Positions 14,609 through 59,232 of a DNA stretch of 64,000 nucleotides are shown here, one piece after another. Numbering within the stretch: the stretch's first letter is position 1; every line of letters starts with the position of its first letter. A program made the translations under genes and the position numbers. The DNA comes from Actinomadura sp. GC306 (lineage in GTDB: Bacteria > Actinomycetota > Actinomycetes > Streptosporangiales > Streptosporangiaceae). Below the pieces are notes generated by a model. The model made no database searches, was not told the DNA's origin, and was given only the letters and a program-made list of their open reading frames with translations. The stretch is taken from positions 1-64,000 of the forward strand of contig NZ_SMKM01000002.1 in the NCBI RefSeq assembly GCF_004348665.1, in the 5' to 3' direction.

Positions 14609-14617
14609 GCCCCGAGC

Positions 14618-16918: not shown

Positions 16919-17000
16919 CGCACCCACATCCTCGTAGTCGCCCGGGGTCCCCCTCACTTTCGCACGAGGACGCGGCCCGCACCCGCGAGCCGGAGACGTG

Positions 17001-18086: not shown

Positions 18087-18190
18087 CGGCGCCTCCCTCG
18101 CAGTCCTCCCCATGATTTCCCGAATTGCGATGATTAGTCGCTTATGTAGGTTGATCGTGACCGGGTGGTCGCCGGGGGCGGCCGGACCGG

Positions 18191-19171: not shown

Positions 19172-19202
19172 GGGCTCTCCTCTGTACGGGCGCGCGGCGC
19201 AT

Positions 19203-19216
19203 ACCGACCGGTCGGT
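19203..19216. promoter_or_regulatory. TetR-type operator, 14-bp perfect palindrome
   Basis: ACCGACCGGTCGGT lies between the phosphotriesterase-family start (19171) and the TetR start (19280). Palindromes of this GACCGGTC type are common TetR sites and would block the leftward promoter. Confidence 0.7.
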
Positions 19217-19279
19217 TTTCTGGCAAGCTATGGCGTGGGACACATCGGAGTCAATGCCCCGCTGATGGGAGGTGCCCAG

Positions 19280-25329: not shown

Positions 25330-26598
25330 CTACGCCCCTCCGGGACGGACGCCGTCGAGCATCCCGAACCGGTGCAGCAGCCAGAGCAGCGGGTCCTCGG
25401 CCCGGTACGGCCGGACGCCGCCCGCGCCGACCCGCCCGCCCTCCGGCGCCGCGCCGAGCGCCGACAGGCCGAACAGCGCGTGGTCGGCGAACTGCTGCCC
25501 GAGGTAGGTGTCGAGCTGGCCCGCCCGCCACTCGTGCAGCAGCGCCCGGACCTGCTCGTCCACCGCGTCCCGGTCGTCGAGGTCCAGCACGCCCTGGCCG
25601 GACCGGGACCGGTGCAGCGCCGACTGCTCCAGCAGCCCCGGCCGCAGCACGTCGATCTTGGTGAGGGCGACCGCGACCGGCACGGGCAGCGGCCGGCCGG
25701 GGCGGGTGCCGTGCCGCTGCCGGAGCGTCTCGGTGACGCGGGCGATGACGTTCAGCGGCTCGCCGTCCGGGTCGGCCGCGGGCGGCCCGGCGGGCGTCCC
25801 GGGGACGCCGTCGCGCACCCCGGAGCGGGCGCCGGGCAGCTCCAGCGGGTCGACGAGGAAGATGATCGCGTCGGCCGCCTCCAGGTACCGCAGGTGCAGG
25901 TCGGTGGCCTCGCGGCTGCGCAGGTCCTCGCCGGCGGTGTCGAACAGCACGAGCGCGAGCGAGTCGTTGCGCGGGCGGGACAGGCGCCCCTTCCGCGTCC
26001 GGGTGAGCAGGTACACCAGCGGCTCGCGGGGGCCGGTCGCGGCGCTCGCCGTCGTCGGCAGCAGCCGCCGCTCCTCCAGCAGCGGGCGGGCGAAGTCGCG
26101 CTTGTACCGCTCGATCGTCCGGTCGTCGCACGCCACCAGCGACGCGTCCAGCTCCGTCCCGACCCGGTTCATCAGCTCGTGCAGCAGCACGGCGATGTAG
26201 GTGCTCTTGCCGGCGTTCTTCGCCCCGACGAGCGCGACGATCCGGCCGGGGGAGTCGCAGTACGCGGACGGGAGCGGGTTGTGGCACTCGGGGCAGGCGC
26301 GGTTGCCGGTCGGGAGCCCGCAGTCCGGGCAGTCCGCGCGGCCCGCCCGTCCCGGCGCGGCGAACACCGGCGGCAGCGACGCGCCCGCCGTCGACCCGGT
26401 GTAGGCGGCGAGCTCCTCGTCCAGGACGGGCGCGCAGCCCCGCCGCCGCCCCGACTGCCCTCGGCAGCGGAACAGGATCCGCTGCGGCGCGACCGACGCG
26501 AAGCAGTACGGGCACGTGACGCCCTTGCGGGACGCGCGCGGCCGGGCCGGGCGCTGCAGCGCCCCCGCGCCGGCGATGCGGGCGAGCGGCCCGGTCAC
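25330..26598 (-). CDS. TRAFAC GTPase of the DO-GTPase1 type with zinc ribbons
   Basis: 422 residues. The GTG start at 26598 overlaps the stop of the upstream gene by four bases (GTGA), which suggests coupled translation. Zinc-ribbon Cys pairs are at 29/32 and 90/93 with 102/105. The GTPase has P-loop GAKNAGKS (125-132), DTAGE as G3 and TKID as G4. No membrane helix is present, unlike its partner at 21350. It probably acts as a soluble regulatory switch of the cassette. The Cys-rich start may bind a nucleic acid or a protein partner; this is inference. Confidence 0.85.
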   Translation of the reverse strand: MTGPLARIAGAGALQRPARPRASRKGVTCPYCFASVAPQRILFRCRGQSGRRRGCAPVLDEELAAYTGSTAGASLPPVFAAPGRAGRADCPDCGLPTGNRACPECHNPLPSAYCDSPGRIVALVGAKNAGKSTYIAVLLHELMNRVGTELDASLVACDDRTIERYKRDFARPLLEERRLLPTTASAATGPREPLVYLLTRTRKGRLSRPRNDSLALVLFDTAGEDLRSREATDLHLRYLEAADAIIFLVDPLELPGARSGVRDGVPGTPAGPPAADPDGEPLNVIARVTETLRQRHGTRPGRPLPVPVAVALTKIDVLRPGLLEQSALHRSRSGQGVLDLDDRDAVDEQVRALLHEWRAGQLDTYLGQQFADHALFGLSALGAAPEGGRVGAGGVRPYRAEDPLLWLLHRFGMLDGVRPGGA

Positions 26599-38856: not shown

Positions 38857-39099
38857 TCAGGGCGCCCAGTCGTGCGGGCCGAGCTGGTAGCCCTTGCTCG
38901 TCGAATGCAGGTGGTTGATCGACACCAGGTGCCCGAGGGCGGCCCAGAGGTCCTCCTCGGGGGCGCCGATGAGCCGCTCGATCGTGTCGAAGTCGGCCGC
39001 GCCGCCGTCCTTGTCGATCGTCGCGACGGTCTCGTACACGGTCAGCTCGAAGTCCGTCAGCTCCTGGACGTCTCCGCGTCTGAACTCTCGCTCGTCCAT
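38857..39099 (-). CDS. Small winged-helix-like protein, unknown function
   Basis: 80 residues from ATG 39099. Composition and codon use fit real coding. The order of helices (ELTDFELTVYETVATI, DFDTIERLIGAPEEDLWAALGHLV) followed by a strand pair (INHLHSTSKGYQLGP) resembles a winged helix. It is divergent from helR, with the RAE between them. Not a family I recognise. Confidence 0.55.
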   Translation of the reverse strand: MDEREFRRGDVQELTDFELTVYETVATIDKDGGAADFDTIERLIGAPEEDLWAALGHLVSINHLHSTSKGYQLGPHDWAP

Positions 39100-39217
39100 G
39101 GCGAGAGCGTGCCCAGTACCGGCGGGTTCTATCTGTCCGGGCGACACGGACTCGCAGACCGGTGCGCGCGGGGGAGGAACGAACACTCCCCTCCACTCTC
39201 AACCTATAGCGCACCGG

Positions 39218-39236
39218 GGGGCTTGCGGCAAGACCC
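39218..39236. promoter_or_regulatory. Rifamycin-associated element (RAE) before helR
   Basis: GGGGCTTGCGGCAAGACCC is a 19-bp imperfect inverted repeat that fits the known RAE pattern (GGGGCTTGCGGCAAG core). RAEs precede rifamycin-inducible genes in actinobacteria, including helR. It ends 68 bases before the chosen helR start. Confidence 0.88.
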
Positions 39237-39304
39237 GGGTCGTGCCGCACAATCGTGCAGCCAACGGCCGCAACCTGCGGAAACGCCAGATCGGAGTTGA
39301 TCAT

Positions 39305-41476
39305 TTGGAGCCGCTGACCACCGGCGCCTTCGACCTTCCCCGCACGCTCGCCCACAAGGCCGACCCGGCGCTGATCGCCGGCGACGAGCGGCACTTCGCG
39401 GCCGTCGCGGCGAGCCTGGAGCACTCGATCGCCGACCTGTCCGAGCGCCTGGACGCCGCGCGGACGGCCCCCGGCGGCATCGGCCGGCAGGCGCTGGACC
39501 GGGACATGGAGATCCACCGGCTGAGCGGGCGGCTGCGGCTGCTGCGCCGCTTCGGGCTGGACCTGTGCCTGGGGCACTTCGTCCGGGCGGACGACCCGGA
39601 GCCCGTGTACGTCGGGCGGCTCGGCCTCAAGGACGCCTCCGGCCGCCGCCTCCTGGTCGACTGGCGCTCCCCGGCGGCGGAGCCGTTCTTCGGGGCGACC
39701 CACGCCGACCCGATGGGGCTGGTGAGCCGCCGCCGGTACCGCTGGACCCGGGGCCGGATCAGCGACTACTGGGACGAGGTGTTCACCCCCGACGGCTTCG
39801 AGGGGCACGCCGCGCTGGACGACCAGTCCGCGTTCATCGCCAGCCTGGGCGGGCACCGGTCGGCACGGATGCGGGACGTGCTCGCCACCATCCAGGCCGA
39901 CCAGGACGCGATCATCCGCGCGGGCTCACAGGGCGCCCTCGTCGTGGACGGCGGCCCAGGAACCGGCAAGACCGTCGTGGCCCTGCACCGCTCCGCCTAC
40001 CTCCTCTACTCCGACCCCCGCCTCGGCCAGAACCGGGGCGGAGTCCTCTTCGTCGGCCCGCACCAGCCCTATCTCGCCTACGTCGCCGACGTCCTGCCCA
40101 GCCTCGGAGAAGAAGGCGTCCAGACCTGCACGCTGCGGGACCTCCTTCCAGAGGGAGCGGACGCGGGGCCCGAGGCCGATCCGGAGGTCGCGCGGCTGAA
40201 GTCGTCTGCGGACATGGTGAAGGCGATCGAGCCGGCCGTCCGGTTCTACGAGAACCCGCCCGCCGAGGGGATGACGGTCACCACCCACTGGTCGGACGTG
40301 TGGCTGGGCCCACACGATTGGGCCGAGGCGTTCGCGGCCACCGAGCCCGGTACCCCGCACAACGAGGCGCGCGACCAGATCTGGGCGGAACTCGTCGCGA
40401 TCATTCTGGACAAGCTGGGCGAGGAGGACGTCTCGCCGGGCCTTCTCCGCAGGTCGCTGCGCCAGGACGGGGAACTGCTCACGGCCTTCAACCGCGCGTG
40501 GCCCGTCATCGACCCGGCCGACCTCGTCGGCGACCTGTGGTCGGTGCCCGCCTACCTGCGCCTCTGCGCTCCCTGGCTCAGCCCGGACGAGATCCGGAAA
40601 CTGCAGCGCAAGGACGCCCACGCCTGGACGGTGTCCGACCTGCCGCTCCTGGACGCGGCGCGCCAGCGGCTCGGAGACCCGGAGGCGTCCATCCGCAAGC
40701 GCCGCCAGGACGAAGCCCTCGCCGCCCAGCGCGAGCACATGGCGCAGGTGGTCGACAACCTGATCGACGCGGCGGCGGCCTCGGGCGCCGACGGCGACGA
40801 CGGCGAAGGTCTCGTGGTGATGCTGCGCGGGCAGGACGCCCAGGTCAGCCTCGTCGACGAGAGCGCACTCCCCGGCACCGACCCCGACCGCCTCGCCGGC
40901 CCGTTCGCGCACATCGTCGTGGACGAGGCCCAGGAGCTCACCGACGCCGAATGGCAGATGCTGCTGGCCCGCTGCCCGTCCCGCAGCTTCACCATCGTCG
41001 GGGACCGCGCCCAGGCCAGGCGCGGCTTCACCGAGTCGTGGCAGGAACGGCTCAAGCGGGTCGGGCTCGACCGGATCGAGCTGGCGTCCCTGACCGTCAA
41101 CTACCGCACCCCGGAGCCGATCATGGCGGAGGCCGAGCCGGTCATCCGGGCCGTCCTCCCGGACGCGAACGTCCCGGCCTCCATCCGCACCGGCGACGCC
41201 CCGGTGATCCACGGCTCGACCGCGGACCTGCACGCCATCCTGGAAACCTGGCTAGCCGAACACACCGAGGGCACCGCCTGCGTCATAGGCGCCCCGGCGT
41301 TCGAGCCGACCCCCCGCGTCCGCTCCCTGACCCCGGAACTGGCGAAGGGCCTGGAGTTCGACCTGGTCGTCCTCATAAACCCGGAGAGCTTCGGCGAGGG
41401 CATCGAAGGAGCGGTCGACCACTACGTCGCCATGACCCGCGCAACCCGCCAACTGGCCATCCTTAACACCACATGA
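39305..41476 (+). CDS. helR: RNA polymerase recycling motor HelR
   Basis: 723 residues from TTG 39305, with a GGAG site eight bases upstream; an in-frame GTG at 39242 lies too close to the RAE. It is a superfamily 1 (UvrD-like) helicase fold: Walker A GGPGTGKT near residue 216, Walker B VVDEAQELTDAEW, GDRAQARRG, NYRTPEPIM and the final motif AMTRATRQL. The N-terminal coiled-coil-like helices (SLEHSIADLSERLDAAR) fit the RNA-polymerase-inserting arm of HelD-like proteins. HelR removes rifamycin-bound or stalled RNA polymerase from DNA and gives rifamycin tolerance in Streptomyces and mycobacteria. Length, motifs and the RAE make this assignment firm. Confidence 0.9.
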   Translation: MEPLTTGAFDLPRTLAHKADPALIAGDERHFAAVAASLEHSIADLSERLDAARTAPGGIGRQALDRDMEIHRLSGRLRLLRRFGLDLCLGHFVRADDPEPVYVGRLGLKDASGRRLLVDWRSPAAEPFFGATHADPMGLVSRRRYRWTRGRISDYWDEVFTPDGFEGHAALDDQSAFIASLGGHRSARMRDVLATIQADQDAIIRAGSQGALVVDGGPGTGKTVVALHRSAYLLYSDPRLGQNRGGVLFVGPHQPYLAYVADVLPSLGEEGVQTCTLRDLLPEGADAGPEADPEVARLKSSADMVKAIEPAVRFYENPPAEGMTVTTHWSDVWLGPHDWAEAFAATEPGTPHNEARDQIWAELVAIILDKLGEEDVSPGLLRRSLRQDGELLTAFNRAWPVIDPADLVGDLWSVPAYLRLCAPWLSPDEIRKLQRKDAHAWTVSDLPLLDAARQRLGDPEASIRKRRQDEALAAQREHMAQVVDNLIDAAAASGADGDDGEGLVVMLRGQDAQVSLVDESALPGTDPDRLAGPFAHIVVDEAQELTDAEWQMLLARCPSRSFTIVGDRAQARRGFTESWQERLKRVGLDRIELASLTVNYRTPEPIMAEAEPVIRAVLPDANVPASIRTGDAPVIHGSTADLHAILETWLAEHTEGTACVIGAPAFEPTPRVRSLTPELAKGLEFDLVVLINPESFGEGIEGAVDHYVAMTRATRQLAILNTT

Positions 41477-42248: not shown

Positions 42249-43274
42249 TCAGCCGTAGCGGCTGAGGTCGTGGAAGAAGCCCGGGACGGTGTGCAGGGCG
42301 CCGGAGGCGGCTACCTCGTCGTAGACGTAGCGGGCCACGGCGAGGTCGAGGACGCCCAGGCCGAAGGGGGAGAAGACGACCGGTCTGTCGGCGGGCGGGG
42401 TGGTCTTGCCGGTGAGGACGTCGTACAGGGTGCCGTCGACGAAGTCGCGGTGGCCGACCTGCTGCTCGGCCAGGTGTGGTGATGTGTTGGCCTTCATGCA
42501 GTGCTCGACGTCGTCCACGATGTTGCAGGACGCCAGGATGATCTCGGGGGACAGGTCCCGCAGCGAGATGTGCAGCACGAGCGGGTTGTGCGCGAACCAG
42601 GCCGGGTCGGTGACGTGCGGCTCGCCGGCGACGGTGGCGAAGACGACCAGGTCGGACGAGCGGATCAGCGACTCGGCCGAGTCGTGGATCGTGATGTCGC
42701 CCTTCTCCGAGCGCTCCAGGTAGCCCTTGAAGCCCTCGGCGTGCTCGGCGGACAGGTCGTGGATGCCGAGGGAGTCGAAGGTGAACCCGTTGCCCGCCAG
42801 GTAGGTGTGGATGTAGCGGGCGATGAGGCCGACGCCGACGAAGCCGACCGTGCGGGGGCGGTCGCCGCGGGCGTCGGCGAGGGTCGCGGCGGCGAGCGCG
42901 GCGGACGCCGCGGTGCGGGCCGCGCTGATGATGGAGCTCTCCAGGCACGCGAACGGGTAGCCGGTCTCGGCGTCGTTGAGGATCAGCACGGCGGACGCGC
43001 GGGGGATCCCGTTCGCGACGTTGCCGGGGAAGCTGGAGATCCACTTGATGCCGTGCACGCCGACGTCGCCCTCGACGGAGGCGGGCAGCGCGATGATCCG
43101 GTCGGCCGGGCGGTCGGGGAACCGCAGGAAGTAGGAGTCGGGGTTGACGGTCCGCCCCTCGCCGTGCAGCCGGTAGGCGGCCTCGACCATCCGGGTGACC
43201 CGCTCCTCCTGCCCGGCGACCGCGTCGTGGACCTGGGCGCCGGAGATCACGGCGAATGCGGGGGCCTGCGTCAT
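42249..43274 (-). CDS. sbnB: SbnB-like dehydrogenase for L-2,3-diaminopropionate synthesis
   Basis: 341 residues, ornithine-cyclodeaminase/mu-crystallin fold. ATG 43274 has CGGAG eight bases away. The N-terminal substrate part has HGIKWISSFPGNVANGIPRASAV. The Rossmann motif GFVGVGLIARYIHTYL binds NAD. SbnB oxidises N-(2-amino-2-carboxyethyl)-L-glutamate to L-Dap and 2-oxoglutarate, the second step after SbnA. It follows the sbnA homologue by 31 bases on the same strand, so they form one operon. Together they feed the NRPS with Dap. Confidence 0.92.
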   Translation of the reverse strand: MTQAPAFAVISGAQVHDAVAGQEERVTRMVEAAYRLHGEGRTVNPDSYFLRFPDRPADRIIALPASVEGDVGVHGIKWISSFPGNVANGIPRASAVLILNDAETGYPFACLESSIISAARTAASAALAAATLADARGDRPRTVGFVGVGLIARYIHTYLAGNGFTFDSLGIHDLSAEHAEGFKGYLERSEKGDITIHDSAESLIRSSDLVVFATVAGEPHVTDPAWFAHNPLVLHISLRDLSPEIILASCNIVDDVEHCMKANTSPHLAEQQVGHRDFVDGTLYDVLTGKTTPPADRPVVFSPFGLGVLDLAVARYVYDEVAASGALHTVPGFFHDLSRYG

Positions 43275-43305: not shown

Positions 43306-44274
43306 TCAGGTGCCGAGGATATCGGGCGGCAGATCGCCGAAGTGCTCCCGTACCCAGCTCTCCTCGTAGATGGAGTCCAGGTACCGCTCGCCGAGGTCGG
43401 GGGCGATGGCCACCGCGACCGGGTCCTCGCCGGGGTACTTGGCCTCCAGCCAGCGGCACGCCCCGGACACGACGGTGCCGGTCGAGCCGCCGAACAGGAA
43501 CCCCCGCGACGACAGGGCGCGGACGGTCCGGATCGTGTCGGGCTCGGCGACGTGCACCACGTCGTCGACGAGCGACTCGTCCACCAGTTCGGGCCTGCTG
43601 CTGGTGCCGAGGCCCGGGACCATGCGGCGCTCGGGGATGCCGCCGAACGTGACCGAGCCGACCGCGTCCACCGCGACGATCGTGACGGGGCGGTCGTGCT
43701 CCCGGAAGTAGCGGGCGCAGCCCATCAGGGTGCCGGTGGTGCCCGCGCCGACGAAGAGAACCTCCAGGTCGGGGAACTCCCGGTCGATCGATGGAGCGGT
43801 CCCGCGGTAGTGCGCCAGCCAGTTGTTCCGGTTGGCGTACTGGTTCAGCCACACGTACCCGCGGCCGGACTCGCACAGCTCCCGGACGTGCGCGATGCGG
43901 CCGCCGAGGTAGCCGCCGTTGTCGTCCTTGTCGGACACGACGCGGACCTCCGCGCCGAGCGCCCGCATGACCCGCATGGACGCCGGGTTGCAGCGCGGGT
44001 CGGTGACGCAGACGAACTTCAGCCCCCGGCTCGCCGCGATCAGGCTGAGCGCGATGCCGAGGTTCCCGGACGAGGACTCCACGATGACCGAGTCCGGGGT
44101 GAGCGCGCCCTCGGCCTCGGCCGCGTCCACCATCGCGGCGGCGGCCTTCAGTTTCACCGAACCCGCGAAATTGAAGCCCTCGCATTTGAGGTACAGCGGA
44201 CGGTCGATGACGTGCCGCAGATCGACGTAAAGGTCGTCGACATTGAATTCCTGCGGCGAGGTTATTATGGGCAC
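43306..44274 (-). CDS. sbnA: SbnA-like PLP enzyme for L-2,3-diaminopropionate synthesis
   Basis: 322 residues from GTG 44274, with GAGGGTG upstream; the frame is open further but lacks a site. It is a cysteine-synthase-like fold: the PLP Lys lies in GSVKLKAAAAM, the Asn contact in ESSSGNLGIAL and the phosphate loop in GAGTTGTLMG. SbnA joins O-phospho-L-serine and L-glutamate to N-(2-amino-2-carboxyethyl)-L-glutamate, which SbnB turns into L-Dap. The stand-alone adenylation gene is divergent from it across 234 bases, where promoters for both must lie. Confidence 0.92.
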   Translation of the reverse strand: MPIITSPQEFNVDDLYVDLRHVIDRPLYLKCEGFNFAGSVKLKAAAAMVDAAEAEGALTPDSVIVESSSGNLGIALSLIAASRGLKFVCVTDPRCNPASMRVMRALGAEVRVVSDKDDNGGYLGGRIAHVRELCESGRGYVWLNQYANRNNWLAHYRGTAPSIDREFPDLEVLFVGAGTTGTLMGCARYFREHDRPVTIVAVDAVGSVTFGGIPERRMVPGLGTSSRPELVDESLVDDVVHVAEPDTIRTVRALSSRGFLFGGSTGTVVSGACRWLEAKYPGEDPVAVAIAPDLGERYLDSIYEESWVREHFGDLPPDILGT

Positions 44275-44508
44275 GCTGTCACCCTCAAATGAAGAAGCAA
44301 TTCCCTCATCTTCCCCCGGAGTTCGCCGCGGGCACGCCTGGCCATGGCGGTTCATCACGTTACCTGCGCGCATCTTCCCGCCGCAACCCCCTACTTACCG
44401 ACGGGTAGCGACGAATGGGAGAGGCTTCTGTCAGGACGCGGATAAGCTATGCCCCCCGCTTGTTTTGGGTGATGACAGCGGAGAAGTCCTACCTCACGGA
44501 GAGTAATG

Positions 44509-46014
44509 ATGAGTGCTCGCGGACCCGCCGTGGACCGGCTGCTCCCCCTGGCCGGGCTGCCCGCCCTGGACGTGCCCGCGGCGGAGCTGGAGCGGGCCCG
44601 GGAGCTGGCCGTGCGGCACGGGATGACGCGCGAGGCGGATGTGGACCTCGCCGACCCCGTCATCGCGCGGGTGGAGCGGTTCGCCGCCGAGGGCGACCGG
44701 CCCGCCGTCAGCGACGGCGACGGCGTGCTCTCCTACGCCGGCCTCGCCGAGCGGGCGCGCCGGCTGGCGGCGCTGCTGCGGGAGGAGGGCGTCGAGCCCG
44801 GCACGGTCGTCGGTGTCGGCGGCCCCCGCTCGGCCTCCGTCATCGCCGCGTTCCTCGCGATCGAACTGGTCGGCGCGCTCTACGTGCCCGCCGACGAGAC
44901 GTGGCCGGCCGGGCGCGTCCGCGACGTCCTCGGGCAGGCCGGCGCGTCGGTGCTGCTCCTGGACGGCGCCGGCGCCGACGTGGCCGCGCTGCGGGAGGGC
45001 GCGGCCGAGGCCGGCTGCCGGGTCGTGTCCGCCACCGCGGCGGACGGCCTGGCCCCGTGGCCCGGCGAGCCCCGCCTGGACGGCCTCGACCAGCCCCGCT
45101 ACGTCCTGTTCACCTCGGGCTCGACGGGCCGCCCGAAGGGCGCGGTGGTCGAGCACCAGGGCATGGTCAACCACCTCTGGGCCAAGATCGTCGACCTGGA
45201 GCTGACCGGCGCGGACGTCGTGGCGTTCACCGCCCCGCTCGGCTTCGACATCTCGATCTGGCAGATGCTCTGCCCGCTGCTGCTCGGCGGCCGGGTGGAC
45301 GTCGTCGACGACGAGACCGGGCACGATCCCGTCGCGTTCGCGCGGGCCGTGGACGAGCGCGGCATCACCATCGTCGAGCTCGTCCCGACCATGGTCAGGC
45401 ACCTGCTCGACGACCTGGCCCCGGGCAGCCTGCCCGGCATGCGGTGGATGATCGCGACCGGCGAGGAGCTCCCCGCGGAGCTGTCGCGGCGCTGGCTGGA
45501 CGCGATGCCGCACGCCCGCCTCCTGAACGCCTACGGCCCCACCGAGTGCTCCGACGACGTCACCCACCACACGGTGACCGCCGGCGACCTGCGGCTGCTG
45601 CGCCTCCCGATCGGGACGCCGGTCGTCAACGCCCGCCTGTACGTGCTGCGGGAGGAGGACGACGGGACGTGGGCGGCGTGCGACGCGGGCGAGACCGGGG
45701 AGCTGTTCGTCGGCGGCGTGGTCGTCGGGCGCGGCTACCTGGGCAACGACGAGCGGACGCGCGAGGCGTTCTACCGCGACCCGTTCGGCGACTCCCCGAC
45801 GGGCCGCCTCTACCGGACGGGCGACGCGGTGCGGCTGCTCGGCCCGGGGGAGGGCGGCGAGGACCGTCCCACCCTGCAGTACCTCGGCCGCGTCGACCGG
45901 CAGGTCAAGATCGCCGGGGTGCGGATGGAGCTGGGGGAGATCGAGGCGGTGCTGCAGCGGCACCCCTCGGTGGGGGCCGCCGCCGTCGTCGTGCACGAGT
46001 ACCCCGCCGGGTGA
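44509..46014 (+). CDS. Stand-alone NRPS adenylation core, ends between motifs A8 and A9
   Basis: 501 residues; ATG 44509 has CGGAGAG five bases upstream. Adenylation motifs A2-A8 are intact: [56 protein letters not shown] and GRVDRQVKIAGVRMELGEIE. The protein then ends after AAVVVHEYPAG. Motif A9 (LPxxMVP) and the A10 Lys needed for catalysis are missing. The 450 bases after it hold no such motif in any frame. NRPS module 3 has exactly the missing piece (54220-54405) and no core, so the two may act as one split domain. The pocket code reads D-I-W-E-I-T-A-D-D. Three acidic residues fit a cationic substrate such as Dap. Confidence 0.88.
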   Translation: MSARGPAVDRLLPLAGLPALDVPAAELERARELAVRHGMTREADVDLADPVIARVERFAAEGDRPAVSDGDGVLSYAGLAERARRLAALLREEGVEPGTVVGVGGPRSASVIAAFLAIELVGALYVPADETWPAGRVRDVLGQAGASVLLLDGAGADVAALREGAAEAGCRVVSATAADGLAPWPGEPRLDGLDQPRYVLFTSGSTGRPKGAVVEHQGMVNHLWAKIVDLELTGADVVAFTAPLGFDISIWQMLCPLLLGGRVDVVDDETGHDPVAFARAVDERGITIVELVPTMVRHLLDDLAPGSLPGMRWMIATGEELPAELSRRWLDAMPHARLLNAYGPTECSDDVTHHTVTAGDLRLLRLPIGTPVVNARLYVLREEDDGTWAACDAGETGELFVGGVVVGRGYLGNDERTREAFYRDPFGDSPTGRLYRTGDAVRLLGPGEGGEDRPTLQYLGRVDRQVKIAGVRMELGEIEAVLQRHPSVGAAAVVVHEYPAG

Positions 46015-46082
46015 ATCGTCACGCTGTGTAAGCACATTGGGTGGAACGGGTTGTGAACCTTTGTCACCCGGCGAGCGTCGTG

Positions 46083-46102
46083 GCGCCCCGCACCTGGGGC
46101 GC
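46083..46102 (+). terminator. Hairpin after the adenylation-core gene
   Basis: GCGCCCC and GGGGCGC form a perfect seven-base stem with a six-base loop, 68 bases after the adenylation-core stop. It probably ends that transcript, so the NRPS gene would have its own promoter. Confidence 0.55.
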
Positions 46103-46202
46103 TCACCGGCCGTTTTGTCACTCCTGTTAGCAATGGGGCAGGTCAAGTTCTGCTTTTGAGGGGATTGCGAGGCATGTGGCGGACTGGTTGACTGTGGCTC
46201 CG

Positions 46203-46216
46203 CTACTCCTGAGTAG
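46203..46216. promoter_or_regulatory. 14-bp palindrome in the NRPS upstream region
   Basis: CTACTC-CT-GAGTAG has perfect six-base arms and lies about 250 bases before the NRPS start. A looser CTAC...GTAG element (44391-44408) is in the sbnA/adenylation-core promoter gap. A shared regulator is possible but unproven. Confidence 0.35.
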
Positions 46217-46464
46217 AGCATGGGGCCAGAGCGGCCCCGGTCGTGGGGCGGAAAGCGGCGGCGCTCTGTATTGGCGGGAGCACAGGGCGTCCGATCCCGG
46301 GTTCACGCGGGCCGATCGCGTTCCCGGAAAGGCTCGGGGTGAAAGGGGACGGGGAACAGCCCGATTTGTGTGGTCATTCTCTTTAGTTTTCTGCCCGCCG
46401 GCGCCGGGCCGGTGCCGGCCGCGGGCGTGAAGCCAACCCCCTTCGACCGGGAAAGTGCCGCTTG

Positions 46465-49400
46465 ATGTCCACCGAGTACGTTCCTCTTTCGGCCGCTCAG
46501 CGGAGCGTCTGGTACGCGCAGCAACTGGCGCCCGAAACGCCGATCGACATTGCGCAGTACATCGAGATCGAGGGGCCGGTCGACCACGCGCTGTTCGACC
46601 GGGTGGCGCGTATAGCGGCGCACGAGTCGCTCGCGATGAACGCGCGCCTCGTCGAGGTGGACGGGATCCCGCACCAGATCCTCGACCCGGACGCGACGGC
46701 GACGATCCCCCTCGTGGACCTGTCCGGCGAGCCCGACCCGGACGCCGCCGCGCGGGCGTGGATCGCGGCGCGGATGGCCGAGCCGCTGCCGCCGGACGGC
46801 GAGCGGCTGTACCGCACCGCGCTGCTGCGGCTGTCCCCGGAGCTGCACCGCTGGTTCCTGCGCGCCCACCACGCGGCGCTGGACGCCTACAGCGGCCTGA
46901 TGATCAGCCGCCGCGCCGCCGAGATCTACACGCTGCTCGCGAACGGCGGCGAGTACGACCCCGGGGAGCTCGGCGACTTCCGCGCCGTCCTCGCCGAGGA
47001 GGACGCCTACCGGGCGTCGGAGAAGTTCGAGCGCGACCGCGCCTACTGGCTGGAGCGGTTCGCCGACCGCCCGGTCGCGGTGTCGCTCGCGGACTGCATG
47101 GCCGAGCCGACCGCCGGCTACCTGAGCCGCAGCACCGTCGTCCCGCCGGACGAGACGGCGGCGCTCGCGGCCGGCGCCCGCCGGCTGCGCACCGCCGCGC
47201 CGGGCCTGGCGATCGCCGCGACCGCCGCCTACGTGGCGCGGATGACCGGGACCGAGGACGTCGTCCTCGGCCTCGCGGTCAGCGGGCGGGTGTCCGCCGC
47301 GTCGCGCGAGACGCCCGCGATGCTGTCCACGGTGCTGCCGCTGCGGGTGAGCGTCCGGCCCGGGATGACCGTGGAGGAGCTGGTCCGGACGGCGACCCGG
47401 GCGACCGCGCGGGTGCTGCGCCACCAGCGGTACCGCCGCGAGGACCTGCTGCGCGACCTGCGGCTGCTCGGCGAGCGCCGCCGCCTGCACGGGCCGGTCA
47501 TCAACGTCATGGCCTTCGACTACCGGCTCGACTTCGCGGGCCTGCCGGCGCGGACGCACGCCATCACGACCGGCCCGGTCGACGACCTGTCGATCAACAT
47601 CTACGACAACTTCGACGGGACGGGCATGCGCGTCGACTTCGACGCCCACCCCGACCTGTACGGCGAGGACCAGGTCTCGGCGCACCTGGAGCGCTACGTC
47701 CGGTTCCTGCGGACCCTCGGCGACGCCGACCCGGCCACGCCGCTCCGCGAGATCGGGCTGCTGGACGACGCCGAGCGCGCCCGCGTCCTGGACGAGTGGA
47801 ACGACACGGCGCTGCACGTCGAGCCCGGCGTCGTCCCCGGCCTGTTCGAGGCCCAGGCCGCCCGCACCCCGGCCGCGCCCGCCGTGACGCACGGCGACAC
47901 CACGCTGACCTACCGGGAGCTGGACGAGCGCGCCAACCGCCTCGCCCACCACCTGATCGGCCGCGGGATCGGCGCCGAGGACTTCGTCGCGCTCGCCCTG
48001 CCCCGGAACACGGACCTGGTCGTCGCGGCGCTCGCGGTGCTGAAGGCGGGCGCCGCCTACCAGCCGGTCGACCCGGCGTACCCGGCCGGCCGCATCGCGT
48101 ACATGCTGGAGGACGCCGCCCCCGCCTGCGTCATCACGACCTCCGGCGCGGACCTGCCCGGCACCACCCCGCGCGTCCTGCTGGACGACCTCGACCTCGG
48201 CGCCCACCCGGCGACGGCGCCCACCGACGCCGACCGCGTCCGGCCCCTGCGCCCCGGCAACGCGGCCTACGTCATCTACACGTCCGGTTCGACGGGCCGG
48301 CCGAAGGGCGTCGTCGTCTCGCACGCCAACGCCGTCGACCTGTGCGCCTGGGCGAACCGGGACTTCGGCCCCGAGCGCCTCGCCCGCGTGCTGTTCTCCA
48401 CGTCGCTGAACTTCGACGTGTCGGTGTTCGAGTGGCTGGCCCCGCTCACGGCCGGCGGGCACATCGAGGTCGTCCGCGACCTGCTCGACGTGGCGGAGCG
48501 CGGCGGCTGGAAGGGGACGCTGATCAGCGGCGTCCCGTCCGCGATGTCGGCGCTGCTCGCGACCGGCTCGCTCCGTTCGGAGGCTGTTGCCGGGGGGTCT
48601 GGGGGGTCGTCCCCCCAGATCCAGCTTGAGGCGGGCGACATCGTGCTCGCCGGGGAGGCGCTGCCCGCGAGGCTCGTCCACGACCTGCGCGCACTCGCCC
48701 CGGACGCCCGCATCTCCAACATCTACGGCCCGACCGAGGCGACCGTCTACGCCACCGCCTGGTACGACGACGGCAACGCCGGGGGGCACGCGCCGATCGG
48801 CGCGCCGATCGCCAACACCCGGGCCTACGTCCTGGACGCGGCGCTCGAACCCGTCCCGGCCGGGGTGCCCGGGGAGCTGTACCTGGCGGGGGACGGGCTG
48901 GCGCGCGGCTACCTGAACCGCCCGGAGCTGAGCGCAGACCGGTTCGTGGCGTGCCCGTTCGGGAAACCCGGCGAGCGCATGTACCGGACGGGTGACCTGG
49001 TCCGCTGGCGTCAAAGCAGTTCCCGGGGGGCGTGGGGGGTCGCCCCCTCGCAGGGACACGGCGCCGGGCAGATCGAGTACCTCGGCCGGCTCGACCACCA
49101 GGTGAAGGTCCGGGGCTTCCGGATCGAGCTCGGCGAGATCGAGACGGCGCTGTCCGCGCACCCGGCGGTGACGCAGAGCGTCGTCGTCGCCCGCGAGGAC
49201 GCCGCCGGCGACACCGTCCTCGTCGGGTACGCGGTGGCGGACGGCGCCGGCCCCGCCGAGCTGAAGCGGTCCCTGGCGGCGGTGCTGCCCGAGTACATGG
49301 TGCCGTCCGCGGTCGTCGTGCTGGACGCGATGCCGCTGAACCCGAACGGCAAGCTCGACCGCGCGGCGCTGCCCGAGCCCGACCTGGCCCCGGCCGCCGA

Positions 49401-52400
49401 GGGCCGCGCCCCGCGCGACGCCCGCGAGGAGGTCCTGTGCGCGGCGTTCGCCGAGGTCCTCGGCGTGGAGCGGGTCGGCATCGACGACAACTTCTTCGAC
49501 CTCGGCGGCGACTCCCTCAAGGCCACCCGCGTCGTGTCCCGGGCCCGCTCGGCGCTGAAGGCGGACCTCGGCGTCCGCGCCCTGTTCGAGGCGCCGACCG
49601 TCGCCGCCCTCGCGGAACTGCTCGCGGGGACCGGCGCGGACGCCCGGCCCGAACTCGTCCCGGTCGAGCGGGACGGGCTCGTCCCGGTCTCGTACGCGCA
49701 GCGGCGGCTGTGGTTCATCCACGACCTCGAAGGCCCCTCCGCGACCTACCACATCCCGATCCCGCTGCGGCTGACGGGCGACTTCGACCTCGCCGCCGTG
49801 CGCGCCGCGATGCGCGACGTCATGGCGCGGCACGAGGCGCTGCGCACCGTGTTCACCGAGGTCGAGGGGGAGCCCTACCAGCGCGTCCTCGGGCCGGACG
49901 AGATCACCCTCGAACCCGAGATCGCCGACTGCGACCCGGCCGGGCTGGAGGCGGCCGTGTTCGCGGCGGCGACCCGCGGGTTCGACCTGGCCGCCGAGCC
50001 GCCGGTCCGCGCGCACGTCTTCCGGATCGCGGACGGCGAGCACCTGCTCCTGCTGGTGCTGCACCACATCGCCGGCGACGGCTGGTCGATGGAGCCGCTC
50101 GCCGCCGACCTCATCACGGCCTACGCGGCCCGCGCCGCCGGCGCGGAGCCGGCGTGGGCGCCGCTGCCGGTGCAGTACGCCGACTACTCCGTCTGGCAGC
50201 GCGACCTCCTCGGTGACGAGAACGACCCGGGCAGCCTCGCCGCGCGGCAGTTCGCGTACTGGCGGGAGGCCCTCGCCGGACTCCCCGAGGAGCTGGGCCT
50301 GCCCGCCGACCGGCCCCGCCCGGCGCGCGCCACCTACCGGGGCGCCCAGCACGCGTTCGCCCTGCCGCCCGAGCTGCACGCCGAGCTGGCCGCGCTCGGC
50401 CGCGAGCACCGCGCCAGCATGTTCATGGTGCTGCAGGCCGCGCTCGCCGGGCTGTTCACCAGGCTCGGCGCCGGGACCGACGTCCCGATCGGCTCCCCGG
50501 TCGCGGGCCGCCAGGACGAGGCCCTGAACGACCTGGTCGGCGTGTTCGTCAACATGCTGGTGCTGCGGACCGACACCTCCGGCGACCCGTCGTTCGCGGA
50601 GCTGCTCGGCCGCGTCCGCGACACCGACCTGGCAGCGTTCGCCCACCAGGACGTGCCGTTCGAGCGGCTCGTCGAGGTGCTGAACCCGGCGCGGTCGATG
50701 TCGCGGCACCCGCTGTTCCAGGTGATGATCTCGATGCAGAACGACCCGTCCGCGCGGGTCGAGCTGCCGGGCCTCACCGTCGCGCTGGAGCCCGTCGACC
50801 CGGGCGTGTCCCGCTTCGACCTCGCCCTCCTCGTCGACGAGCGGCACGACGCCGCCGGCGCCCCGGCCGGGATCGAATGCCGGCTGGAGTACGCGCTCGA
50901 CCTGTTCGACCCGGAGACCGCCGCGTCGATGGCGGCCGGGCTGGAGCGGCTCCTCGCGCAGGTCGCCGCCGACCCGTCGCTGCCGCTCGGCGACGTCGAC
51001 ATCCTCGACGACGCCGAACGCGGCCTGCTCCTGGAGACCTGGAACGACACGCGGCTGGACATCGCGCCCGGGCTCGTCACCGACCTGTTCGAGGCGCAGG
51101 CCGCCCGCACCCCGGACGCCACCGCGGTCATCGCGGGCGAGACCCGGCTGAGCTACGCCGAGCTGAACGACCGCGCGAACCGGCTGGCCCGGCGCCTCAT
51201 CGAGCACGGCGTCGGCCCGGAGGACTTCGTCGCCCTCGCCCTGCCCCGCGACGCCGACCTGGTGGCCGCGGCGCTGGCCGTCCTGAAGGCGGGCGCCGGG
51301 TACCAGCCGATCGACCCGGCGTACCCGGCCGACCGGATCGCCTACATGCTGGAGGACGCGGCCCCCGCCTGCGTCATCACGACCCGTTCGGTGGACCTGC
51401 CCGGCGGGACGCCCCGCATCGAACTCGACGCGCTGTCCCTCGACGGGTACTCGGGGGAGGACGTCACCGACGCCGACCGCGTCCGGCCCCTGCTGCCCGG
51501 CAACCCGGCGTACGTCATCTACACGTCCGGTTCGACGGGCCGCCCCAAGGGCGTCGTGATCTCCCACGCGAGCGTCGTGGACTTCTGCGCGGAGTCGATG
51601 GAGGGCTACGGCCCCGACCGGATGCGCCGGGTGCTGTTCTCCACGTCCCTCAACTTCGACGTGTCGGTGTTCGAGTGGCTGGTGCCGCTCACGATCGGCG
51701 GCGAGATCGAGGTCGTCCGCGACCTGCTGGAGATCGCCGAGCGCGGCGGCTGGTCCGGGACGCTGATCAGCGGCGTGCCGTCCGCGGTGTCGGTGCTGCT
51801 GTCGCGCGGCGGGCCGGACGGCGGGGTCCGGCTGGACATCGGCGACATGGCGCTCGGCGGCGAGGCGCTGCCGCCGCAGCTCGTCCGGGACGTGCGGGCG
51901 CTGCTGCCGGACGCGCGGGTCTCCAACATCTACGGCCCGACCGAGGCGACGGTCTACGTCACGGGCTGGTACGACGACGGCAACGCCGAGGGCCACGCCC
52001 CGATCGGCCGCCCGATGGTCAACACCCGCGTGTACGTGCTGGACGAGCGGCTGCGCCCCGTCCCGGTCGGCGTGCCCGGGGAGCTGTACCTGGCCGGGGA
52101 CGGGCTGGCGCGCGGCTACCTGAACCGCCCCGGCCTGACCGCCGACCGCTTCGTCGCGTGCCCGTTCGGCGGGCCGGGCGAGCGGATGTACCGCACCGGC
52201 GACCTCGTCCGGTGGAACCGCGGCGGGCACATCGAGTACCTCGGCCGCCTCGACCACCAGGTGAAGGTCCGCGGGTTCCGGATCGAGCTCGGCGAGATCG
52301 AGACGGCGCTGACGGACCACCCGGCGGTCGCGCAGAGCGTCGTCGTCGCCCGCCGCGACGCCGTCGGCGACGACGTCCTCGCCGGATACGTCGTCGGGAA

Positions 52401-55400
52401 CCCGGGCGCCCGCGTCGACCCCGCCGAGCTGCGCGCGTCCGTCGCGAAGTCGCTGCCGGACTACATGGTGCCGGCCGCGGTCGTCGTGCTGGACGCGATG
52501 CCGCTGAGCCCGAACGGCAAGCTCGACCGGGCCGCGCTGCCGGAGCCGGACTTCTCCGCGTCGACGACCTCCCGCGCCCCGCGCGACGCCCGCGAGGAGA
52601 TCCTCTGCGGGATCTTCGCCGACGTCCTCGGCCTGGAGCGGGTCGGGCCCGGCGACGGGTTCTTCGACCTCGGCGGCGACTCGCTGAAGGCGACCCGCGT
52701 CGTCGCCCGCGCCCGCGCCGCGCTCGGCGTGGAGCTGCCGGTCCGCGCGCTGTTCGAGGCGCCGACCGTCGCGGGCCTCGCCGGGCACCTCGCGGAGGCG
52801 GCGGCCGCCGCGCGCCCGGCGCTGCTGCCCGCCGAGCGCCCCGACCCGCTGCCGGTGTCGTTCGCGCAGGAGCGGCTCTGGTTCCTGAACCGCCTCGAAG
52901 GGCTCACCGCCACCTACAACATGCCGATCCCGCTGCGGCTGACCGGCGAGATCGACCCCGGCGCGATGCGGGCGGCGCTGCGGGACGTCGTCGCCCGGCA
53001 CGAGTCGCTGCGGACGCTGTTCGGCGAGGCCGACGGCGAGCCGCACCAGATCGTGCTGCCGCCCGGCGAGGCCGAGCCGGTGCTGACGGTGGGGGAGACC
53101 GACGACGTCCGGGGCGCCCTCTTCACCGACGCCACCCGCGGCTTCGACCTGGCGAGCGAGCTGCCGATCCGCGCCCACCTGTACCGGCTCGGCGCGGACG
53201 AGCACCTCCTGCTGATCGTCATGCACCACATCGCGGGCGACGGCTGGTCGATGGCGCCGCTGGCCCGCGACGTGATCACCGCCTACCTGGCCCGCCGCGA
53301 CGGCGAGGCCCCCGACTGGGCGCCGCTGCCCGTCCAGTACGCCGACTACGCCCTCTGGCAGCGCGAGCTCCTCGGCGCCGAGGACGACCCCGCGAGCCTC
53401 GCCGCGCGGCAGATCGCCTACTGGAAGGACGCCCTCGCCGGGCTGCCCGACCAGATCCGGCTGCCGGCCGACCGGCCGCGGCCCGACCGCGCGTCCTACC
53501 GGGGTTCGCAGGTCGCGTTCGAGATCCCCGCCGAGCTGGCGGACGGGCTGCGGGCGCTCGCCCGCGACCACCAGGTCAGCGTGTTCATGGTGCTGCGGGC
53601 CGCGCTCGCCGCGCTGCTGACCCGGCTCGGCGCCGGCACGGACGTGCCGATCGGGTCGCCGATCGCGGGCCGCACCGACGAGGCCCTGGACGACCTCGTG
53701 GGCGTGTTCGTCAACACGCTGGTGCTGCGGACCGACACCTCCGGCGACCCGTCGTTCGCGGAGCTGCTCGCCCGCGTCCGCGACACCGACCTCGCCGCCC
53801 ACGCGCACCAGGACGTCCCGTTCGAGCGGCTCGTCGAGGTGCTGAACCCGGTGCGGTCGCTGGCCCGGCACCCGCTGTTCCAGGTGATGCTGACCCTGCA
53901 GAACAACCCCGAGGCGTCCGTCGAGCTGCCCGGCCTGACCGTCGCCGTCGAGCCGGTGGACGCCGGGGTCGCCAAGTTCGACCTGGAGTTCATGCTGGAG
54001 GACGCCCGCGACGGCGGCGGCTTCGCGGGGACCCTCGAATACGCCCTCGACCTGTTCGACCGGGACACCGCCGAGCGCCTCGCCGGCTGGTTCCGGCGGA
54101 CCCTGGAGGCCGCCGTCGCCTCCGGCGCCGCCGTCACCGTCGCGGAGCTCGACCTCCCGGGCGCCGCCGCCCCCGCCGAGGAGTTGGTGATCGAGGGACC
54201 GGTGGCCGAGGGACCGGTGGAGAAGCGGCTCGTCGCCTACGTGGTCGCCGCGCCGGGCGAGGCGCCCGACCCGGAGGAGCTGCGCGCGCACATCCGGGAG
54301 AGCCTGCCGGAGTCGATGGTGCCCGCGGCCGTCGTCGTCCTGGACGAGATGCCGCTCACCCCGAACGGCAAGGTCGACGTCAAGGCCCTGCCGAAGCCGG
54401 CGCTCGCGGCCGTCCCGGCGACCGCGTACCGCGCCCCGTCCGGGGCGACGGAGGAGGCCGTCGCCGCGGTCTTCGCCGACCTCCTCGGCGTCGAGCGGGT
54501 CGGCGCCGACGACGACTTCTTCGCGCTCGGCGGCAACTCGCTGATCGCGATGCGGGTCGTGAGCCGCGTCCGCCGCGTCCTCGACACCGAGCTTCCCGTC
54601 CGCGCGCTGTTCGAGGCGCCGACCGTCGCGGGCCTCGCCGCGCTGCTCGGGCACGGCGCGCGGCAGGAGCCCGGACGCCCGGCGCTGGAGCCGCGCGAGC
54701 GGCCGGCATCGGTGCCGCCGTCGTACGCGCAGCAGCGGCTCTGGTTCCTCAACCGGTTCGAGGGGCCGTCGGCCACCTACAACATGCCGACCGCGCTGCG
54801 CATCCGCGGCCGGCTGGACGTGGCCGCGCTCCGCGCCGCGATCGGCGACGTCGTCGAGCGGCACGAGACGCTCCGCACGGTCCTGCCCGACAGCGGAGGA
54901 GTGCCGCGCCAGCTCGTCCTGGACCCGGCCGCGGCCCGCCCCGAGCTGGAGGTCGCCGACACGACCGAGGCGGAGCTGCCGACGCGGCTCGCCATGGCCG
55001 CCGGGTACGCGTTCGACATCTCCGCCGAGCCGCCGCTGCGCACCCACCTGTTCCGCCTCGGGCCGGACGAGCACGTCGCGCTGCTGCTCATGCACCACAT
55101 CGCGGGCGACGGCTGGTCGATGGCGCCGCTGGCCCGCGACGTCATCACCGCGTACGCGGCCCGCGCCGCCGGGGAAGAGCCGCGGTGGACGCCGCTGCCC
55201 GTCCAGTACGCCGACTACACGCTCTGGCAGCAGGACCTCTTCGGCTCCGAGGACGACCCGGACAGCCTGATCTCCCGGCAGATCGCCTACTGGAAGGACG
55301 CCCTGGCCGGGCTGCCGGAGGAGCTGCCGCTCCCCGCCGACCGGCCGCGCCCCGCGCAGGCGTCCTACCGGGGCGGCACGGCCCGCTTCCGGCTCGGCCC

Positions 55401-58400
55401 CGACGTCCACGGGCCGCTGCTCGCGCTCGCCCGGGAGACCGGCGCCAGCCCGTTCATGGTCGCCCAGGCCGCGTTCGCCGGTCTGCTGACCAGGCTCGGC
55501 GCGGGCACGGACGTGCCGATCGGGTCGCCGATCGCGGGCCGCGCGGACGAGGCCCTGGACGACCTCGTCGGCATGTTCGTCAACATGCTCGTCTTCCGCA
55601 CCGACACCTCCGGGGACCCGTCGTTCCGCGAGCTGGTCGGCCGCGTGCGGGAGACCGACCTCGCCGCGTACGCGCACCAGGACGTGCCGTTCGAGCGGCT
55701 CGTCGAGGTGCTCAACCCGCCGCGCCACCTGTCCCGGCACCCGCTGTTCCAGGTGGGGCTCACGTTCCAGAACAACCCCGAGGCGCGGCTGGAGATGCCG
55801 GGGTTCAGCGCCGAGGTGGAGCCGCTGACCGCGGGCGCCGCCCGCTTCGACCTGCTGATGATCCTCACCGAGCGCGAGGGCGGGCTCGACGGCGAGCTGG
55901 AGTTCGCGCTCGACCTGTACGACCCGGCCACGGCGCGGCGGCTCGTCGAGCGATTCGAGCGGTACCTGGCGGCGCTGCTCGCCGACCCGGACGCGCCGAT
56001 CGGCGCCGCCGGGGTGCTGTCCGCGGACGAGCGCGCCGCGATCCTCGGCGACTGGGCCGGGGGACACGCCCCCGTGGCGGAGCGGAGCACGATCCCGGCG
56101 CTGTTCGAGGCGCAGGCGGCGGCGCGGCCGGACGCGCCGGCGGTGACGTTCGAGGGCGTGTCGTGGACGTACGGCGAGGTGAACGCGAAGGCCAACCGCC
56201 TCGCACGCCGCCTGGCCGAGCGGGGCGCCGGCCCGGAACGCTTCGTGGCGCTGTCGCTGCCGCGGTCGGCGGACCTCGTCGTGGCGATCCTGGCGGTTCT
56301 GAAGACGGGCGCGGCGTACGTGCCGATGGACCCCGACTACCCGGCGGACCGCATCGCGTACATGGTCGAGGACGCGCGGCCGGTGCTGACCATCGGCCCG
56401 GACGACCTCGACGCCACGGGCTATGACGACACCGACCTCGGTGTGGCCATCGACCCGGAGAACCCGGCGTACGTCATCTACACGTCCGGTTCGACGGGTC
56501 GGCCCAAGGGTGTCGTGGTTCCGCATCAGAACGTGGTGCGGCTGCTGCGTTCGACCGAGCAGTGGTTCGACTTCGGCCCGGACGACGTGTGGACGCTGTT
56601 CCACTCCTACGCCTTCGACTTCACGGTGTGGGAGCTGTGGGGTTCGCTCCTGTACGGCGGGCGTCTCGTCGTCGTCCCGTACATGACCTCGCGTTCGCCG
56701 CAAGACTTCCTGAAGCTGCTGGTGGACGAGCGCGTCACCGTCCTGAACCAGACCCCGTCCGCCTTCTACCAGCTGATGGCGGCCGACAGGGACGCCCCGG
56801 GCTCCGAGCTGGCGCTGCGCTACATCGTCTTCGGCGGTGAGGCCCTCGAACTGGGGCGCCTCGAAGACTGGTACTCGCGGCACGCCGAGGACGCGCCGGT
56901 GCTGGTCAACATGTACGGGATCACCGAGACCACGGTGCACGTCTCGTACCTCGCGCTCGACCGCGCGTACGCGGCGACCGCGCCGGGCAGCGTCATCGGC
57001 GTCGGCATCCCGGACCTGAAGGTGTACGTCCTGGACGACCGCCTCCGGCCCGTCCCGCCCGGTGTCGTCGGCGAGCTGTACGTGGCGGGCGCGGGCCTGG
57101 CCCGCGGCTACCTCGACCGGCCGGGTCTGTCGGCCGAGCGGTTCGTCGCCGACCCGTTCGGCGCGTCCGGCACCCGCATGTACCGGACGGGCGACATCGG
57201 CCGGTGGCTGACCGACGGCCGCCTCGAATACCTGGGCCGCAGCGACCAGCAGGTGCAGCTGCGCGGCTTCCGGATCGAGCCGGGCGAGATCGAGGCGGTG
57301 CTGGCCCGGCACGACGCGGTGTCCGACGTCGCCGTGCTCGTCCGCGACGACCGCCTGGTCGCCTACGTGGCCGGGAGCGGCGTCGACTCCGCCGAGCTGC
57401 GCCGCTTCGCCGCCCGCGACCTGCCCGACCACATGATCCCGGCCGTGGTCGTCGAGCTGGACGCGCTCCCGCTCACCGTCAACGGCAAGCTCGACCGCGC
57501 GGCGCTGCCCGCCCCCGGCACCGCCGCGAAGGTCTCCTCGCGCGCACCCCGCACGCCGGAGGAGGAGACGCTCTCGCGCCTGTTCGCCGAGGTGCTCGGG
57601 CTGGAGCGGGTCGGGATCGACGACGGGTTCTTCGACCTCGGCGGCGACTCCATCATCGCGATCCAGCTCGTCTCCCGCGCCCGGCAGTCGGGCCTGGTCG
57701 TCACCCCCCGCGACGTGTTCCAGCACCAGACCGTCGAGGAACTGGCGGCGGTCGCGCGGCCGGCCGGCGAAGGCGAGGAGATCGAGGCCGAGGCCCCCGG
57801 CGCCGGGACCGGCCCGGTCCCGGTCACCCCGATCGTCGCGTGGCTGCGCGACCGGGTGGGCGGCGACGCCGAGCTGATCAGCGGCTTCCACCAGGCGATG
57901 CTGCTGCGCACGCCGCCGGACCTCGGCGCGGACCGGCTGGCGGACGCCCTCCGGACGCTCATGGACCACCACGACGTCCTCCGGCTGCGGCTGGACGTCG
58001 ACGGTGACCGCTGGCAGCCGGTCGTCCGGCAGGCCGGCTCCTGCGACACCGCCGGCCTCGTCACCCGCGTCGACGCGGCGGGGCTGGACGCCGACAAGCT
58101 GCAGGCCGTCATCACCGAGCAGGCCACGGCCGCCCGCGACCGGCTCGACCCGCGGGACGGGACGGTCGCGCAGCTCGTCTGGTTCGACGCGGGCGCCGAC
58201 CAGGGCCGCCTCTTGGTCGTCCTGCACCACCTCGTCGTGGACGGCGTGTCCTGGCGGATCCTTCTGCCCGACCTCGTCACGGCCTGGGCCGGGGGAGAGC
58301 TGCAGCCGGTCGGGACGTCGTTCCGCCGCTGGGCGCAGAAGCTCACCGCCGCCGAGCCGGACGAGGACGAGCTGGAGGACTGGCTCGACATCGTCGACGG

Positions 58401-59232
58401 CCCGCCGCAGAAGCTCGCGGAACGCGCGCTCGACGCCCGCGCGGACATCGCGGCGCGCGCCGACTCGCTGACCGTCGAGCTGCCCGCCGACGTCACCGGG
58501 CCGCTGCTCACCGACGTGCCCGCCGCGTTCCACGGCCGCGCCAACGACGTTCTCCTCACCGGCCTCGCCCTCGCCGTCGCGCAGTGGCGGCGGCACCGCG
58601 GCGGCCGCGGCACCGGCGTCCTGGTCGACCTGGAGGGCCACGGCCGCTCGGACGCCGTGCCGGGCGTCGACGTCTCCCGCACCGCCGGGTGGTTCACCTC
58701 GATCCACCCGGTGCTGCTGGACGCGGGCAACGCGGCCGGCGGCGCGGCCATCAAGAAGGTGAAGGAGCAGCTCAGGGCCGTCCCCGGCGACGGCATCGGC
58801 TACGGCCTGCTCCGCTACGGCGGCGGCGAGGCCGCCGAGGAGCTGGCCGAGGCGCCGCCCGCGCAGCTCGCGTTCAACTACCTCGGCCGCGTGGACGGCG
58901 GGGCCGAGGGCGGCGACTGGACGCTCGCCGCCGAGGAGCTGCCCCCGGGCGAGGACCCCCGGATGCCGCTCGCGCACGTCCTGGAGGTCAACGCCGTCAC
59001 CCGCGACCTGCCCGGCGGCCCCGTGCTGTCCGCGACGTGGACGTGGCCGGGCGGCCTGCTGGACGGCGCCGGCGTCCGCGAGCTGGCCGAGGGCTGGTGC
59101 ACCGCGCTGCGCGGCCTCGTCGCCGCGGTCGCGGCCGGCGAGACGGGCGGCTTCACCCCGTCGGACCTGCTCGTCGAACTGGACCAGGCCGAGATCGACA
59201 AGCTACAGAGCGCATGGAGGCGGCAGCATTGA
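46465..59232 (+). CDS. Four-module nonribosomal peptide synthetase, module 3 without adenylation core
   Basis: 4255 residues from ATG 46465. Order: C1 (1-430, EntF-like, motif HHAALDA at 135), A1 (445-977), PCP1 (Ser1017), C2 (1066-1510, HHIAGDG at 1200), A2 (1522-2032), PCP2 (Ser2073), C3 (2126-2567), an adenylation-lid fragment (2586-2648 with A10 Lys2636), PCP3 (LGGNS, Ser2692), C4 (2747-3190), A4 (3206-3689), PCP4 (Ser3729), E (3784-4222, HHLVVDG at 3921). Pocket codes: A1 D-V-F-S-V-A-I-V-Y, A2 D-V-F-S-A-G-I-V-Y (substrates not assigned), A4 D-F-W-N-V-G-M-V-H, the threonine code. Module 4 should give a D-residue. C1 resembles the first domain of enterobactin synthase, so an acyl starter is likely. 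There is no thioesterase; the chain passes to the next protein, whose gene overlaps this stop. Confidence 0.95.
48587..48630 (+). repeat. In-frame palindromic insertion 1 inside adenylation domain 1
   Basis: TCTGGGGGG (48598-48606) and CCCCCCAGA (48611-48619) form a perfect nine-base stem with a four-base loop. The encoded stretch ([18 protein letters not shown]) is about ten residues longer than the same place in A2 and looks like the GC-rich intergenic hairpins of actinobacteria. Confidence 0.65.
49012..49060 (+). repeat. In-frame palindromic insertion 2 inside adenylation domain 1
   Basis: CGTGGGGG and CCCCCTCG (49031-49050) form a stem with one mismatch, flanked by TTCCCGGGGGG and CAGGGAC. 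The encoded [19 protein letters not shown] adds about 16 residues before the A8 motif compared with A2. It shares the CCGGGGGG...TGGGGGGTCG pattern with insertion 1. Confidence 0.65.
54193..54222 (+). repeat. Tandem 15-bp repeat at the C3/adenylation-lid joint
   Basis: GAGGGACCGGTGG occurs at 54193-54205 and again at 54208-54220, encoding [10 protein letters not shown]. It lies exactly between the end of C3 and the lone adenylation lid of module 3, like a linker or a scar of a rearrangement. Confidence 0.75.

Follow-up and report, generated by a model that had tools for sequence, protein, structure and literature searches.

A free adenylation protein and an A9-A10 half-lid inside an Actinomadura NRPS as candidate parts of one adenylation domain

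The window analysed here is the 64,000-nucleotide stretch at the start of contig NZ_SMKM01000002.1 (76,685 bases) from Actinomadura sp. GC306, and it holds a gene for a stand-alone adenylation protein followed on the same strand by a large nonribosomal peptide synthetase (NRPS) gene. The first of these (plus strand, 44506 or 44509 to 46014) encodes 502 amino acids ending in ...AAAVVVHEYPAG*. Its N-terminal domain (residues 1-463, plus strand, 44506-45894) carries the motifs up to A7 and is recognized by Pfam AMP-binding with an E value of 3.5e-73; scores against other profiles are 355 bits for TIGR01733 (positions 1-409; cut-off 317) and 247 bits for PF00501. The remaining tail (residues 464-502, plus strand, 45895-46011) contains the hinge Asp464, motif A8 and the first half of the C-terminal subdomain, and stops at VVVHEYPAG, just as an earlier note on this DNA had described. 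AMP-binding is the only Pfam domain in the protein, which thus has the full N-terminal domain and conserved motifs of the NRPS adenylation family and lacks a complete C-terminal subdomain and the A10 lysine on the same chain. Two other features of the window lie outside this system: a HelD/HelR-type helicase-like gene upstream of the cluster (38894-41476, plus strand; recognized by reading only), and a tRNA-Cys with anticodon aca called by ARAGORN at 26344-26431 on the minus strand, inside long open reading frames and probably spurious.

The NRPS (plus strand, 46465-59232) has the order C1-A1-T1-C2-A2-T2-C3-halflid-T3-C4-A4-T4-E by Pfam and HMM scan. Pfam marks five Condensation/E, three AMP-binding, four AMP-binding_C and four PP-binding stretches in it, so exactly one AMP-binding_C stretch is an orphan, and it lies in module 3. 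That module consists of a condensation domain (C3, about 52807-54144, limits approximate, from Pfam and our own HMM scan), a variable Ala/Pro-rich linker at the place where an adenylation core would be (54145-54222), a half-lid (residues 2587-2645, 54223-54399) and a carrier domain (PCP3, about 54439-54639, limits approximate, Pfam PP-binding, with the phosphopantetheine serine in LGGNS), all on the plus strand. The half-lid begins with KRLVAYVV at residue 2587 (nucleotide 54223), matches positions 27-76 of AMP-binding_C (PF13193, E 6e-11) and includes A9 (LPESMVP) and A10 (NGKVD) with the catalytic lysine at residue 2636 (54370-54372, plus strand); the domain matches and residue positions agree with the earlier account of this piece. 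It is internal to the NRPS, between C3 and PCP3, and lies about 8.2 kb downstream of the gene for the stand-alone protein. The specificity code of A4, read by hand, is DFWNIGMVH, a Thr code.

The two proteins hold complementary parts of one domain. PF13193 has 76 positions, of which the tail of the stand-alone protein covers 1-18 (a weak match when the tail is scanned alone) and the NRPS piece 27-76, and the claim that the pieces rebuild a single domain with almost nothing lost or repeated thus holds. These limits place the cut in the A8-A9 loop, as had been proposed, but inside the C-terminal subdomain and not at the boundary between core and lid, since the stand-alone protein runs on through the hinge and A8 and includes the first half of that subdomain. 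"Core" and "half-lid", which we use below for the two pieces, are therefore loose names. Translation of the three frames after 46014 shows no hidden continuation of the adenylation domain, and orthologues end at the same site, so a sequencing error or frameshift, which the earlier note had named as a way in which its reading could fail, is ruled out.

AlphaFold returns a mean pLDDT of 89.7 for the core protein, with most of the N-terminal domain above 90; over the last 40 residues block means fall from 68 to 39, and residues 492-502 are below 50. In a model of the piece from the end of C3 through PCP3, the half-lid is a beta-alpha-beta unit with pLDDT 83-95, preceded by a disordered linker at about 40-60. 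These predictions fit the idea that the core tail becomes ordered once the half-lid completes it, although low pLDDT of the tail alone is no proof of this.

The pairing suggested by the window recurs in other genomes. The earlier note had proposed a search for the same gene pair in related genomes, and a scan of one genome per species yielded 56 loci with lid-less cores in Actinomadura, Thermomonospora, Actinocorallia, Nonomuraea and Streptomyces, nearly all of them ending within a few residues of the same site (...AAVVVHEYPAx). At 42 of the 56 a half-lid module is present in an NRPS of the same locus (in one of these, L083, the reading frame is broken), nine more have half-lid modules elsewhere in the genome, and the other five are cut by contig ends; thus, all 51 loci whose contigs allow the check are accompanied by a half-lid module in the same genome. 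Its position is not fixed, being second in some species and third in others. Among 251 genomes of the family, 29 have a core at at least 70% identity, and one more has a distant full-length relative. A query of C3-halflid-PCP3 (E 1e-60) matches 26 of the 251, and the core is present in 26 of these 26, a count that ignores kinship and in which the two genes are neighbours in most genomes. Three core genomes have no match to the query: one (G150) has a half-lid module by inspection, and two have broken contigs (L018, L032). No half-lid module without a core was found in the 251 family genomes. Of 23 genomes sampled from the window's genus, 22 have the core, so the peptide is nearly universal there. 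In some loci (L015/L045) a double "C" precedes the half-lid; as read from the translation, the first is probably the E domain of module 1 and the second a C domain. Relatives L065-L077 had been considered as candidates for a methyltransferase insertion, but those scanned are full adenylation domains in which the lid is ordinary and the A8-A9 loop longer.

Both halves show purifying selection. The A10 lysine is present in 43 of 43 orphan half-lids and in 58 of 58 in a wider set. Pairwise dN is 0.015-0.17 for the half-lid, comparable to or below that of intact cis lids, and far higher (0.16-0.40) for the linker; the core tail, at 0-0.048, is the slowest-evolving part of its protein. These values bear on the idea that module 3 once had its own adenylation domain in cis and keeps the half-lid as a structural remnant, with PCP3 loaded by a complete adenylation domain of the same line and the core either serving another role or dead. 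There are precedents for such loading. Some fungal NRPSs keep inactive adenylation remnants and are loaded by a complete adenylation domain (PMC10192304); like module 3, SidD/Nps6 retains a truncated adenylation domain within a module, but that remnant is inactive, with about 290 residues missing from its N-terminus, the carrier is loaded by A1 of the same protein, and no free core is described. In capreomycin synthesis, CmnA-A1 loads CmnI in a trans-iterative manner (PMC12400406). CmnI resembles module 3 in having no adenylation core, and its carrier is loaded in trans with Dap; however, it is described as having neither adenylation domain nor lid, and its donor is an adenylation domain within another module, whereas here the candidate donor lacks A9-A10 and the acceptor keeps a half-lid. 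An A6-A7 scar in some half-lid modules (see below) also speaks for decay. In a mere remnant, however, nothing would require the A10 lysine to persist in every species, the rate of evolution to stay as low as in working lids, or the A9 signature to be that of the core's family (next paragraph). The core retains its motifs and code, and what it has lost is precisely what the module retains. We therefore regard the remnant explanation as unlikely.

The A9 motif distinguishes half-lids from the lids around them. The aromatic residue of LPxYMVP is present in 160 of 162 ordinary cis lids and in none of 65 half-lids, and it is likewise absent from all 17 complete relatives of the core, so that at this site half-lids look like lids from the core's own family, unlike those of their neighbours. 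A lid tree places 58 of 59 half-lids in a single clade (support 0.85), separate from the cis lids of the same clusters, and no supported sister group was found for that clade (support 0.185). The outlier, in the last module of the 7402-15276 open reading frame at A. litoris locus L110, groups with ordinary cis lids; it has Ser at the aromatic site (LPDSMVP), which may have arisen by convergence once its core was lost. The signature also argues against the idea that the core borrows a lid in trans from a complete adenylation domain. Cis lids are abundant and chemically similar, but they have the aromatic A9 residue, unlike the core's family, and intact lids would have to leave their own cores; retention of the half-lid would also be left unexplained. 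We give this idea almost no credence.

The reading that we favour, at a probability of roughly 0.85, is that the free core and the module 3 half-lid assemble in trans into one working adenylation domain. It was already put forward in the earlier note and gains support from the sequence comparisons above, as it would explain at once the complementarity of the pieces, their co-occurrence, the invariant A10 lysine, the purifying selection and the shared A9 signature. The pocket for amino acid and ATP, the hinge, A8 and one half of the C-terminal subdomain would come from the core; the second half, which includes the A10 lysine and is tethered next to PCP3, would come from the NRPS. That the arrangement is kept across dozens of species suggests that a free part docks onto marked stations and loads them. 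One could instead suppose that the core makes the aminoacyl adenylate without the half-lid, which would only dock the core or not be needed, and the complete, confidently predicted N-terminal domain lends this some plausibility. The A10 lysine is, however, required for normal adenylation in this superfamily. In addition, the split adenylation domain reported for corallorazine in 2024, and called the first there, was inactive alone and active once both proteins were mixed: Crz1.2, which lacks A9-A10, had no activity by itself and was active with Crz2 (PMC11342130). A core that works without its half-lid is thus very improbable.

The corallorazine system is also a described case, where the earlier note knew of none. 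As in the pair studied here, two proteins share one adenylation domain in Crz1/Crz2, the cut lies between A8 and A9, and the A9-A10 piece precedes a T domain. The Crz split, however, is a border between genes that falls inside a single module. Its core follows C2 at the end of Crz1 and has an N-methyltransferase embedded after A8; its lid forms the N-terminus of Crz2, the next open reading frame (T-TD), and is colinear with the core. The core studied here stands alone as a protein that has AMP-binding only, ends shortly after VVV and carries no C, methyltransferase or T domain, and its half-lid sits in the interior of the NRPS, flanked by C and PCP. The arrangement is not colinear, and a single genome can contain several half-lids. 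In the open-licence literature on split, truncated and stand-alone adenylation domains, the relevant cases are Crz, CmnI and SidD, and other reports may exist. A functional split adenylation domain is thus already known, and a free core with internal half-lids appears to be new. If the favoured reading is true, a tag of 60 residues can address NRPS loading, in that a C-tag-PCP module would take the amino acid of the free core; it would offer engineers a small graft point, account for A-less modules that retain a lid, and make the interaction of adenylation-domain halves directly testable. Annotating such modules as "A-less" and the core as an ordinary stand-alone adenylation domain would then overlook the link between them.

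The likely substrate is a short diamino acid. Aligned over 47 homologues, the pocket residues of the core are D248, I249, W252, E291, I316, T318, A342, D350 and D351 (DIWEITADD), which is the code of PvdL A3 but for one I/L difference and is near that of sulfazecin A3. We take PvdL A3 to be a Dab-activating domain, and sulfazecin A3 is a Dap domain according to its PDB title. The same two are the closest solved structures to the core (VIA-align Z 47.6 for PvdL A3 and 47.5 for sulfazecin A3; 9up2, 9n1u) and match its pocket residues (E, A, D, D) fully or almost so, but each is a cis domain of an NRPS module. Divergent from the core gene lies an sbnA-type 2,3-diaminopropionate synthase gene (minus strand, 43306-44373; NCBIfam TIGR03945, 382.8 bits, cut-off 350), and beyond it an sbnB-type 2,3-diaminopropionate synthesis gene (minus strand, 42249-43274; TIGR03944, 423 bits, cut-off 327). 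Nearly all loci have sbnA next to the core, and most have sbnB. A diamino-acid pocket beside Dap synthesis genes is what is expected of a Dap-activating domain, so the substrate is probably 2,3-diaminopropionate; from pocket and neighbourhood, Dap is most likely and Dab possible. We infer the following order of steps: core and half-lid would bind, the completed domain would adenylate the diamino acid, most likely L-2,3-diaminopropionate supplied by the adjacent sbnA/sbnB pair, and would then load it onto PCP3, the half-lid also serving as an address tag by which the free core is directed to its carrier. The passages of a genus review consulted here describe no product that matches the cluster. 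A GNAT acetyltransferase gene and a thioesterase-like open reading frame come after the NRPS genes, and an MbtH-like gene of the same cluster lies outside the window (contig C222, 70882-71040).

The halves need not derive from one split gene. Lid-less cores form one clade (0.83), and its sister group (1.0) consists of complete stand-alone adenylation proteins. Half-lid modules of A. litoris and Nonomuraea keep a decayed A6-A7 stretch and have no A8, the part that the free core supplies. Complete sister proteins together with these scars make it probable that the pair arose by loss on both sides and not by a single gene fission. Cores and half-lids are not always equal in number. A. litoris has three modules with both scar and half-lid but one close core, and three Actinocorallia genomes (L124, L126, L129) have a second NRPS with a half-lid module, for which no core and no sbnA/sbnB were found in the stretches fetched around the second cluster; in the one of these genomes that is on a single contig, this second half-lid is about 850 kb from the only close core. 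Several half-lids per close core, even across clusters, point to a shared, diffusible core, although the second-cluster modules could instead be loaded otherwise or be dead. We put at about even odds the broader proposal that one diffusible core serves several half-lid modules, even in different clusters, the half-lid being a plug-in address tag that both completes the enzyme and selects the carrier. One case weighs against trans assembly: at A. litoris locus L110 (G001:C18), a protein encoded on the minus strand at 14712-19859 has a module around residues 830-940 with an A6-A7 scar and no lid before the PCP, so some A-less modules in that species are loaded another way or are dead.
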